From Acidobacteriota bacterium (GTDB lineage Bacteria > Acidobacteriota > UBA4820 > DSQY01): a stretch of 64,000 nucleotides of DNA. Under the pieces are notes generated by a model, which did not search any database, had not been told where the DNA came from, and worked only from the letters and a program-made list of their open reading frames with translations. Shown here in pieces: positions 16,701 to 20,339 of the stretch. The stretch spans positions 1 through 64,000 of the forward strand of contig JAJYLT010000003.1 of assembly GCA_021787565.1 (NCBI GenBank), written 5' to 3'. The stretch's first letter is position 1, and the number at the start of each line of letters is the position of its first letter. The position numbers were made by a program, and so were the translations under genes.

Positions 16701-16968
16701 CGCCCCTCCCTCACAGCAGGCCGGAGCCGGCGTTCAGCGCCGCGCTCGCAGAATGAGCATGATAAACCAGGGACCGCCAAGATGCAGTGCGGCCGCCGTC
16801 AGGAGCGCGGTATCCGGTACAACGGAAGTCCGGCGTGATGGATAGCGTCGTATTGCGGCGCGAGGGCCGACCGGGGCCCACGTCCGCAACGCTCTGCGGC
16901 CGCGGGTTCGGGCACGTCTTCCTTGAAATCGGCGGGGCTTCTTGCTACCTTGGCCCAGCGGAGGCCCC
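16701..16968. promoter_or_regulatory. Divergent intergenic region, mpl / PduS-like operon
   Basis: 268 bases between divergent genes, no credible ORF. For the rightward operon there is TTGAAA (16923-16928), 17 bases, then TACCTT (16946-16951) with a TGC immediately before it, placing a start just upstream of the GCGGAGG ribosome-binding site. For leftward mpl transcription, TATCAT (read on the minus strand, 16759-16764) is a possible -10, with a poor -35 seventeen bases away. These are pattern matches only; sigma-factor preferences of this organism are unknown. Confidence 0.35.
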
Positions 16969-18267
16969 ATGCGGGATGCGGCGAGGATTGCGCTTGAGAA
17001 CGGTGTGGTGGGCGCCGGCGGGGCCGGCTTTCCAACCCACGTCAAACTCTCGGCCTCCGCGGACACCTTCGCCGTCAACGCCGCCGAGTGCGAGCCCCTT
17101 CTCTACAAGGACCAGCAGATCCTCGAGCACTTTCTTCCGGAGTTCTCGGAGGGGCTTCTCCTCTGCGGCGAAGCCGTGGGCGCGCGGCGCCTGGTCGTGG
17201 GGATCAAGGACAAGCACCACGAGCTCATCCAACGGTTGCGCGACGAGCTCCCCCGCCAGGTGGAGGTATGTCCCCTGCCCGACACCTACCCCTCCGGCGA
17301 CGAGCACCTGCTGGTCTTCGACGCCACGGGCCGAGCCATTCCCAAGGGCGGAATTCCCCTGGACGTGGGCGTCGTCGTCAACAACGTCGAGACGGTCTTG
17401 AACGTGGGCCTGCAAAAACCGGTCACCCATAAATTCCTCACCGTTTCGGGGGAGGTGCCCGAGGCCCTCACCTTTCGGGTGCCCATCGGGGTGAGCCTCC
17501 GAGAGGTCCTGCACGCCGCCGGCGCCCCCATCGAGGGGATGGGATTCATCCTCAACGGCCCCATGATGGGAACCGTCACGGACGACATCGAACAGCCGGT
17601 CACCAAGACCACCTCGGGAGTGCTGGTTCTTCCTTCGGACCACTCGCTCATCCTCCGGAAGGGCCGCAGAACCCAGGACGTCCACAAGATCGCCTACACC
17701 TGCGACCAGTGCATGCGGTGCTCCGACCTGTGCCCGAGGGACCTCCTGGGCCACTTCGTCAAACCCCACAAGGCCATGATCTCCATCGGCTTCGCGGCGG
17801 AAGAGAAGATGGCCTGGCAGCAGACCGCCCTCTACTGCTGCGAATGCGCCCTCTGCACCCTCTATGCCTGCCCCGAGGACCTGGACCCCTTCCGCGTGAT
17901 GGTGGAGAGCAAGCGGGCCCTCATGGCCCAGGGGATCCGGCCACTCAAGCAGGCGGTGGAACTCACCCCCCTGTACGACTTCCGCCGCACGCCCACGAGC
18001 CTGCTCATCCGCCGGCTGGAGCTGGCCCCCTATCAGCATCCCCAGAAGTACGTGGAAATGGACCTGCGTCCGCGCCGCCTTGAACTGCCTCTCAAACAAC
18101 ACACCGGAGCCCCCTCCACGCCATCGGTCGGGAAGGGACGATCGCTCCGCGGCGGGGACCTGGTGGCGGACATCCCCGAGGGGAGCCTGGGCGCCAAGAT
18201 CTTCTCTCCCCTCGCGGGCCGCGTGGGCGAGGTTTCCTCGGACCGCATCGTCGTGGAGGTCGCATGA
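16969..18267 (+). CDS. PduS/RnfC-like flavin and 4Fe-4S electron-transfer protein
   Basis: 432 residues from ATG at 16969 (GGAGG four bases upstream). Order: an FMN/NAD-binding Nqo1-like domain (NGVVGAGGAGFPTHVKLS, NAAECEPLLYKDQQIL), an SLBB-like segment (~155-225), two Cys clusters, Cys245/248/251/255 (CDQCMRCSDLCP) and Cys290/293/296/301 (CCECALCTLYACP), and a C-terminal barrel-sandwich domain. This is the layout of PduS, the cobalamin reductase of propanediol microcompartments, and of RnfC. The adjoining PduT-like gene, overlapping by ATGA, favours the PduS reading, since PduS and PduT are known partners. No Rnf subunits or diol dehydratase genes occur in the window, so the electron acceptor is open. 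Confidence 0.85.
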   Translation: MRDAARIALENGVVGAGGAGFPTHVKLSASADTFAVNAAECEPLLYKDQQILEHFLPEFSEGLLLCGEAVGARRLVVGIKDKHHELIQRLRDELPRQVEVCPLPDTYPSGDEHLLVFDATGRAIPKGGIPLDVGVVVNNVETVLNVGLQKPVTHKFLTVSGEVPEALTFRVPIGVSLREVLHAAGAPIEGMGFILNGPMMGTVTDDIEQPVTKTTSGVLVLPSDHSLILRKGRRTQDVHKIAYTCDQCMRCSDLCPRDLLGHFVKPHKAMISIGFAAEEKMAWQQTALYCCECALCTLYACPEDLDPFRVMVESKRALMAQGIRPLKQAVELTPLYDFRRTPTSLLIRRLELAPYQHPQKYVEMDLRPRRLELPLKQHTGAPSTPSVGKGRSLRGGDLVADIPEGSLGAKIFSPLAGRVGEVSSDRIVVEVA

Positions 18268-18959
18268 GCCCCAAAATCCACCAAATCCGTGGGGCGGACC
18301 GTGGGCGCGGCCCCGCGCCGAAGAAGCCCAAGACGGACGCCGCTCCGATCCAGCCGCCGAAGGACAGCTACGGCGGCCGGAGGCGCGGGCCCGCCGTCAA
18401 AGACGCCATCGGCCTTCTGGAGCTGACCTCCATCGCCAAAGGCATCGAGGCCACGGACCTGATGCTCAAGGCCTCCGACGTGGAACTCCTGGCCAGCCGG
18501 TCCATCTGCTCGGGCAAGTACATGGTGCTGGTGCGAGGCGACGTGGCCGCCTGCGCCTCCTCCGTGGCCGCGGGCGAACAGGTGGCTCGGGAGACCCTGG
18601 CCGACTCGGTGGTGATTCCACACCTCCATGCCGAGATCTTTCCGGCCATCGCGCAGGCCTCGCTGGTGGAGGAGGTGGGGGCGCTGGGCATTCTCGAGTC
18701 CTTCAACGTGGCCAGCCTGATCGAGGGCGCCGACACCGCCGTGAAGTCTTCCGAGGTCCACCTCCTCGAGATCCGCCTCGCCATGGCCCTGGGGGGCAAG
18801 GCCTTCTGCGTGCTCACGGGACAGGTGGCCGCGGTGCGCTCGGCCGTGGAGGCCGGCAAGTCCGTGATCGGAGCCAAGGGCGCACTGACCAACTGGGCGG
18901 TCATCCCCTCCCCCGATCGCGCGCTCGTCAAGGAAATTCTGGGTGGCCGCCTGATCTAG
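18264..18959 (+). CDS. PduT-like tandem BMC-domain shell protein with N-terminal extension
   Basis: 231 residues. Two bacterial-microcompartment domains in tandem: residues ~46-132 (DAIGLLELTSIAKGIEATD) and ~137-224 (GALGILESFNVASLIEGAD). The pattern closely follows PduT, a trimeric shell protein with a 4Fe-4S cluster at its threefold pore; the cluster-binding Cys is conserved as Cys82 in SRSICSGKYMV. It differs from PduT in a 45-residue N-terminal extension rich in Arg, Lys and Pro. The start is fixed by the ATGA overlap with the PduS-like gene, and no internal Met gives a shorter product. No other shell gene occurs nearby. Confidence 0.9.
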   Translation: MSPKIHQIRGADRGRGPAPKKPKTDAAPIQPPKDSYGGRRRGPAVKDAIGLLELTSIAKGIEATDLMLKASDVELLASRSICSGKYMVLVRGDVAACASSVAAGEQVARETLADSVVIPHLHAEIFPAIAQASLVEEVGALGILESFNVASLIEGADTAVKSSEVHLLEIRLAMALGGKAFCVLTGQVAAVRSAVEAGKSVIGAKGALTNWAVIPSPDRALVKEILGGRLI

Positions 18960-18986
18960 GGCGGCCCAAGCCATGGGAGACACGAG

Positions 18987-20339
18987 ATGAGATCGAGCAC
19001 CGTCCCGAACGGACCAACGGCCGGGGAAGGCCGGGCCTTTCCCCTCCTCCTCGTAGCTCTGGCTCTTTTCTCGACCCTCACCGCCGTTGCGGCCCAGACC
19101 CCTCCGCCCGCTCCTCCCGAGAAGCAGATCACGGGGGTCATCACATCGAGCGGCTTCACCCAGCTCTCCATCGCCCTTCCGCCCAGCAAGACGGAGGCCG
19201 CGACGGCCGTCCAGGCCCAGGAGATCCTCTCCACGGTGACGGGCGATCTGGAGTTCTCGGGCTACTTTCAGCTCGTGGACCCGTCGCTTTTCGCCGGGAT
19301 GAATCCGAACGACACCAAGATCGACTACGATGCATGGACGGGGATGAAGGCGGACTATCTCCTCCTCACCAACGTCTATGCCTCCGGGAACCAGCTCACC
19401 CTCGAAGGCCGGCTCTATGACATCAAGCGCAAGGAGATGGTGACGGGCAAGCGCATCAAGGGCCCCGCCCAGGACGTGCGGGTCCTGGCCCACAACCTCT
19501 CCTCCGTGGTCCTCGACTACCTCTTCGGCGCGGGGAGCTTCCCCACCAGCCAGATCCTCTTCACGTCGCACCTGGCCACCACGGAGGACATCTTTCTCTG
19601 CGATTACGATGGGAAGAACATCCTCCGCCTCACGGCCATGGGACAGCTCAACGTGACCCCCGATGTGAACCCCCAGGGCAACCTCATCGTCTTCACCTCC
19701 ATCCTGAAAGACAGGCAGGAGATCTTCCTGCTGGACCGCCAGGGGCGGCGGAGAAAACTCTACGGCGACGGCGAGGGACTCAACTCCAACCCGCGGTTCT
19801 CCCACGACGGCAAGACCGTGGCCTTCTGCTCCTCCCGGTCCGGAAACCCCGACGTCTGGACCATCGGCGTGGACGGCAAGAACCTGACCCGGCTCACCTT
19901 CTCCTATGCCATCGACACCGCGCCCTGCTGGTCGCCCAACGACCAGCAGATAGCCTTCACCTCCGACCGCTCGGGCTCTCCGCAGATCTACATCATGGAC
20001 AGGGACGGCGCCAACGTGAGGCGGTTGAGTCCGCCAGACAGCGGGCGTTGCGATCAGCCCATCTGGTCCCCCCGCGGCGACAAGATCGCCTACAGCTGCT
20101 TCAAGGACGGCCACTTCAACATCGCCGTGGCGGACCTGACCACCGGAGAGGTCACCTTTCTGACGCATGGGGAGGGAGACAGCGAAGCGCCCTCCTGGTC
20201 GCCCGACGGACGGTACCTGGCCTTCGCCAGCAACCGCTCCGGGAGCTATCAGATCTACATCATGCGTTGGGATGGGTCGGGAGTGACCCGAATCACGAAC
20301 CAGCCGGACTGCTATTCGCCCTGCTGGTTCAAGGGCTGA
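18987..20339 (+). CDS. tolB: Tol-Pal system beta-propeller protein TolB
   Basis: 450 residues. TolB is a periplasmic propeller that links the Tol inner-membrane proteins to Pal at the outer membrane. A signal peptide ends near VAAQTPPP. The N-terminal domain (ITGVITSSGFTQLSIALPPS...) is followed by WD40-like repeats of the form PxxSPDGxxIAFxSxRSGxxxIY, e.g. APSWSPDGRYLAFASNRSGS. GGGAGACACGAG before ATG is a fair ribosome-binding site. pal and tolQRA are not in the window. The 27-base gap after the PduT-like gene could allow read-through. Confidence 0.92.
   Translation: MRSSTVPNGPTAGEGRAFPLLLVALALFSTLTAVAAQTPPPAPPEKQITGVITSSGFTQLSIALPPSKTEAATAVQAQEILSTVTGDLEFSGYFQLVDPSLFAGMNPNDTKIDYDAWTGMKADYLLLTNVYASGNQLTLEGRLYDIKRKEMVTGKRIKGPAQDVRVLAHNLSSVVLDYLFGAGSFPTSQILFTSHLATTEDIFLCDYDGKNILRLTAMGQLNVTPDVNPQGNLIVFTSILKDRQEIFLLDRQGRRRKLYGDGEGLNSNPRFSHDGKTVAFCSSRSGNPDVWTIGVDGKNLTRLTFSYAIDTAPCWSPNDQQIAFTSDRSGSPQIYIMDRDGANVRRLSPPDSGRCDQPIWSPRGDKIAYSCFKDGHFNIAVADLTTGEVTFLTHGEGDSEAPSWSPDGRYLAFASNRSGSYQIYIMRWDGSGVTRITNQPDCYSPCWFKG

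Follow-up and report, generated by a model that had tools for sequence, protein, structure and literature searches.

The stretch of DNA analysed here (the window, 64,000 nucleotides) comprises bases 1-64000 of contig C14, a 158-kb contig of an Acidobacteriota genome of 3.47 Mb (G000; 77 contigs, 98% complete). Two overlapping genes, 16.9 kb from the left end of this contig, encode a PduS-like reductase and a PduT-like shell protein of the bacterial microcompartment (BMC) type. Their positions, and those of other features discussed below, are collected in Table 1.

Table 1. Features of the PduS-PduT locus and of two further contigs of the same genome; positions refer to the window unless a locus prefix is given.
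Feature	Position	Strand	Basis
PduS-like NADH-dehydrogenase-type flavo/iron-sulfur protein, 432 aa	16969..18267	+	Pfam PF01512, PF13534, PF13375; two four-Cys motifs
ATGA overlap, pduS stop / pduT start	18264..18267	+	read from sequence
PduT-like BMC-T shell protein, 231 aa, pore Cys82	18264..18959	+	two PF00936 domains
PduT N-terminal extension, 45 aa, Pro/Arg/Lys-rich	18264..18398	+	sequence; upstream regions compared
tolB	18987..20339	+	Pfam TolB_N, PD40; synteny; not a BMC gene
Open reading frame of 1989 aa	22209..28178	+	by eye
AldDH of second satellite, contig C56	L011:2918-4606	-	
23S rRNA intervening-sequence-type protein, contig C56	L011:4845-5231	-	PF05635
Small single-cluster ferredoxin, contig C33	L009:9598-9885	-	

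The pduS gene reads from an ATG at 16969, with a TTG at 16942 as a possible alternative start, to a TGA at 18265-18267. Its product has the features by which PduS is defined, namely Complex1_51K (PF01512), SLBB, Fer4_17 and RnfC_N domains in Pfam searches and two four-cysteine motifs (Cys245/248/251/255 and Cys290/293/296/301), although the SLBB match is weak (22.4, below the Pfam cut-off of 27). All eight cluster cysteines are kept in 78/78 aligned sequences, and an orthologue in the same genus is 95% identical. The PduS family is related to RnfC and NuoF. The gene adjoins pduT here, and the two are adjacent in nearly all relatives.

The PduT-like protein consists of tandem PF00936 domains (Pfam, E=2.3e-44) preceded by an N-terminal extension; this extension is shorter in close relatives, and distant relatives begin directly at the BMC fold. 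Because the alignment to PduT crystal structures is ungapped, Cys82 falls on PduT residue 38. The cysteine is invariant in 81/81 aligned sequences and is part of a putative pore motif, CSGKY, which fits the C-P/S/A-G-K/R/S-Y/F pattern of the pore cysteine in BMC-T proteins that bear an iron-sulfur cluster (PMC6325248). We use the name PduT-like, rather than PduT, because the protein scores 135.1 bits against the NCBIfam equivalog TIGR02526 (eut_PduT), under the cut-off of 250.3. The nearest named sequence comes from an acidobacterial MAG (98% identical), and the matches that follow are from further acidobacterial MAGs, one labelled Thermoanaerobaculum. A sequence-only reading of this DNA had reported both the ATGA overlap and the retention of the PduT cluster cysteine, and both observations stand. 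From the arrangement of the two reading frames, pduS and pduT are likely to be translationally coupled.

Downstream of pduT, tolB follows after a gap of 27 nt (18959-18987) and is a conserved neighbour of the pair in the order. The gene order PduS-PduT-TolB-RecN is conserved in the family, with Mpl upstream in several genomes. The short gap and the family-wide pduS-pduT-tolB-recN order suggest that the pair shares a transcript with a housekeeping gene; a promoter scan found nothing. Farther along the window, a long open reading frame appears by eye to encode a large, internally repetitive protein that is secreted or surface-exposed.

The sequence-only reading had described the pair as being without other microcompartment genes. 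This is correct for all 158 kb of C14, where searches with PF00936 and PF03319 found no BMC domain beyond the two in the PduT-like protein and no BMC-P, but it does not hold for the genome. PF00936 occurs in four places genome-wide, comprising the two PduT domains, one BMC-H on contig C33 and one BMC-H on contig C56, and PF03319 detects three BMC-P genes in a row on C33. The PF00936 search found no tandem-domain BMC-T in the genome besides the one in the window. The proposed search for BMC-H, BMC-P and signature enzymes thus yielded two BMC-H, three BMC-P, an aldolase and an aldehyde dehydrogenase.

The main locus, on C33, holds a class II aldolase (PF00596, E=3.6e-54), BMC-H and the three BMC-P genes, all identified with Pfam. 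The aldolase has a helical-looking C-terminal tail that is conserved in relatives and is a candidate encapsulation peptide. A D-2-hydroxyacid dehydrogenase (PF00389/PF02826) is encoded 2.1 kb beyond the BMC genes. The ferredoxin gene, a few kilobases past the main locus, is conserved near it in G002, G017 and G090; its product is a possible electron partner.

The second satellite, on C56, combines a BMC-H with a CoA-acylating-type aldehyde dehydrogenase (AldDH), the best NCBIfam match of which is acetaldehyde dehydrogenase (acetylating), under that family's cut-off. After a Pro/Ala-rich linker, this enzyme carries a conserved C-terminal tail, FVSEADVRxAxxxG...TPxAREL, that is common to relatives and resembles a segment of the RpiB-like protein in a consolidated BMC locus, L058, described below. 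The tail is likely a lumen-targeting segment; a comparison of the tail with the PDB gave no meaningful match. The PF05635 protein is encoded between BMC-H and AldDH. Proteins of this type (~60% identical) also occur at the equivalent site in G017 and G090, and none was found there in G042, G082 or G099. A search for a PduL-type phosphotransacylase, the control of which was positive, found none in the genome. The genome thus encodes a microcompartment in three pieces, on C33, C56 and C14.

Relatives keep these parts together. In a phylum sample of 198 Acidobacteriota genomes, PduT (full-length, E < 1e-38) was found in 24 and PduS (family match, E < 1e-70) in the very same 24. All 24 have a BMC-H match, and 22 have BMC-P, as against 80/198 genomes overall (Fisher p=4e-8, without correction for phylogeny). 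The two pair genomes without BMC-P are G094, whose contig starts close to PduS, at the place that the layout of L058 would assign to BMC-P, and G042 (98% complete), which retains both the pair and the BMC-H/AldDH satellite but has neither aldolase nor BMC-P. A second set consists of the 50 genomes behind related pair loci, in which nearly all pairs are solitary; BMC-P is present in 48 of them, usually as exactly three genes. Of the two exceptions, G245 has other BMC-H and BMC-T genes, and G199, a fragmentary MAG, has the pair but yielded no further shell gene. The sequence-only reading had asked whether the pair persists in relatives that lack all other BMC genes: in these sets the fragmentary G199 is the one candidate, and every pair genome of the phylum sample has a BMC-H. 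Several of the exceptions to co-occurrence are contig ends. The contig of G073 breaks inside PduT, and G002, at first sight an instance of BMC genes persisting after loss of the pair, instead has a gap, its contig C48 ending inside TolB, exactly where the pair would begin. Elsewhere in the phylum sample, G052 and G130 have two BMC-P matches each and no detected PF00936 protein; either their shell genes are divergent or missing, or the BMC-P fold has been put to other use.

The layout of the remaining compartment genes is also conserved. Six genomes of this family show the order aldolase-BMC-H-BMC-P1-P2-P3. Three genomes of the sister family have the hydroxyacid dehydrogenase gene immediately after BMC-H-BMC-P1-P2-P3, and in those where an aldolase was detected it is encoded on a separate contig. 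AldDH adjoins BMC-H in every genome of the family and sister family in which AldDH was found.

Of 80 related loci, 78 show no further BMC domain close to the pair; when only the 32 loci with at least 8 kb on both flanks are considered, the count is 30. In the phylum sample, the 24 pairs divide into 14 that are solitary and 10 that lie inside or beside BMC loci. L058 is a complete aldolase BMC locus with the pair in its middle; it contains DeoR, three BMC-P, an RpiB-like protein with weak matches to the BMC families TIGR02536 and PduM, PduS, PduT, PduL, AldDH, BMC-H, aldolase and acetate kinase. In a tree of PduS and PduT, consolidated loci appear in several places and solitary loci do not form one clade. 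This topology is compatible with the pair having separated from a main locus more than once, a direction that depends on the midpoint root. It is conceivable, and we offer this only tentatively, that PduS-PduT forms a portable redox module, relocated repeatedly from the main locus in the aldolase BMCs of Acidobacteriota and Ignavibacteria, here to a site beside tolB, such that the electron outlet is set independently of substrate.

Because the genome holds other BMC genes and relatives keep the parts together, we read the pair as a separately encoded electron-relay part. It constitutes a contiguous but incomplete shell gene complement with PF00936 only, while a main locus with BMC-H and BMC-P lies elsewhere; this is the arrangement by which satellite loci are defined by Axen et al. 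2014 (PMC4207490) and in the main text of Sutter et al. 2021 (PMC8217296). Of the two explanations put forward in the sequence-only reading, a compartment encoded elsewhere and a stand-alone relay, the first is well supported: C33 and C56 carry BMC genes that include no BMC-T and that are inherited together with the pair. That reading had also named an observation that would tell against an isolated pair, a complete BMC locus elsewhere that lacks PduS/PduT and is co-inherited with it; this is what the genome shows, except that the remaining BMC genes are themselves split over two loci. We are highly confident that the pair is a satellite of the dispersed BMC in the same genome. The fuller description, a redox satellite of a dispersed ACI-like aldolase microcompartment, is probably correct.

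As for function, we lean toward a role for the pair in oxidising NADH and exporting the electrons. The aldolase would convert a sugar phosphate in the lumen to a triose phosphate and an aldehyde, and AldDH would convert the aldehyde to acyl-CoA, with NADH formed inside the shell. PduS, bound to the lumenal side of a PduT trimer, would oxidise this NADH via FMN and two 4Fe-4S clusters. Electrons could then leave through a putative [4Fe-4S] pore cluster ligated by Cys82 to a cytosolic acceptor, and lumenal NAD+ would be regenerated. The PduS protein of Citrobacter, an FMN/4Fe-4S reductase that depends on NADH, binds PduT and reduces cobalamin (PMC2982820), and electron exit has been proposed for GRM microcompartments (PMC6325248). 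Alternatively, the 2-hydroxyacid dehydrogenase could recycle NAD+, with PduS/PduT then being accessory.

Flow in the same compartment could instead be directed inward, with a cytosolic reductant delivering electrons via PduT and PduS passing NADH or reduced carriers on to an enzyme of the lumen, for example the 2-hydroxyacid dehydrogenase, whose gene is conserved within the locus. RnfC and NuoF, the kin of PduS, work in both directions within their complexes. We consider inward flow unlikely: the published potential of a PduT cluster, +99 mV in a PduT other than this one, is that of an acceptor from NADH and not of a donor (PMC6325248). It is very improbable that the pair acts in this compartment as a cobalamin reductase feeding a B12-dependent enzyme, as PduS does in PDU and as the cobalamin reduction by the Citrobacter protein might suggest, because a class II aldolase is the signature enzyme here and no diol-dehydratase large subunit (PF02286) was found in 14 genomes, a search in which the control genomes gave no match either. 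Class II aldolases need no B12. PduS homologues are, moreover, common in B12-free GRM compartments (PMC6325248). Lastly, a cytosolic redox complex of PduS and a PduT trimer, unrelated to any compartment, would suit the solitary position of most pairs, their housekeeping neighbours and the gene content of G199, but we reject it as extremely unlikely on the co-occurrence with BMC genes in both genome sets, the retention of a shell-tiling BMC fold and its pore motif, and the many relatives in which the pair lies within a BMC locus.

The many solitary pairs co-inherited with B12-independent aldolase BMCs provide a testable case that PduS-PduT is a general outlet for lumenal NADH electrons, and not only a means of B12 recycling. 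An apparently orphan shell protein and reductase are explained here by compartment genes dispersed over the genome, which is a caution for contig-by-contig annotation. Our literature search, which covered the main text of PMC8217296, found no paper on PduS/PduT satellites in Acidobacteria.

The pair resembles PduS-PduT of the PDU system in PduS domain order, the two four-Cys motifs, the tandem-BMC PduT with a pore cysteine at the residue-38 equivalent, and the adjacency of the genes. It differs in lying outside any pdu operon, in the N-terminal extension of PduT and in a score under the eut_PduT cut-off, and no diol dehydratase was found with it (14 genomes, control likewise without a match). 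PVM and PVM-like aldolase BMCs (PMC4207490) also have a class II aldolase and several BMC-P, and the consolidated relative L058 further shares PduL, DeoR and acetate kinase, arranged around a central PduS-PduT pair; unlike PVM, the genome studied here has neither PduL nor a single locus. In common with the FRAG type, as presented in the main text of PMC8217296, shell genes are scattered over several places and include a BMC-P triplet, and solitary PduS-PduT pairs also occur in Ignavibacteria. Most shell genes of the FRAG type lie far from enzyme genes, whereas here aldolase and AldDH adjoin shell genes.

Sutter et al. 2021 (PMC8217296) drew their description of the ACI type largely from subdivisions 4 and 6, whereas the host here is nearest to the other acidobacterial MAGs named above, and a PduS/PduT satellite goes unmentioned in their main text. 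By the gene content given there, the genome corresponds to ACI: it has a PF00596 class II aldolase with a C-terminal helical tail, a 2-hydroxyacid dehydrogenase (PF00389/PF02826), a BMC-P triplet, at least one BMC-H and an AldDH on a satellite. The ACI AldDH is likewise placed on a satellite locus in that main text, phylogenetically near the AldDH of MIC3.
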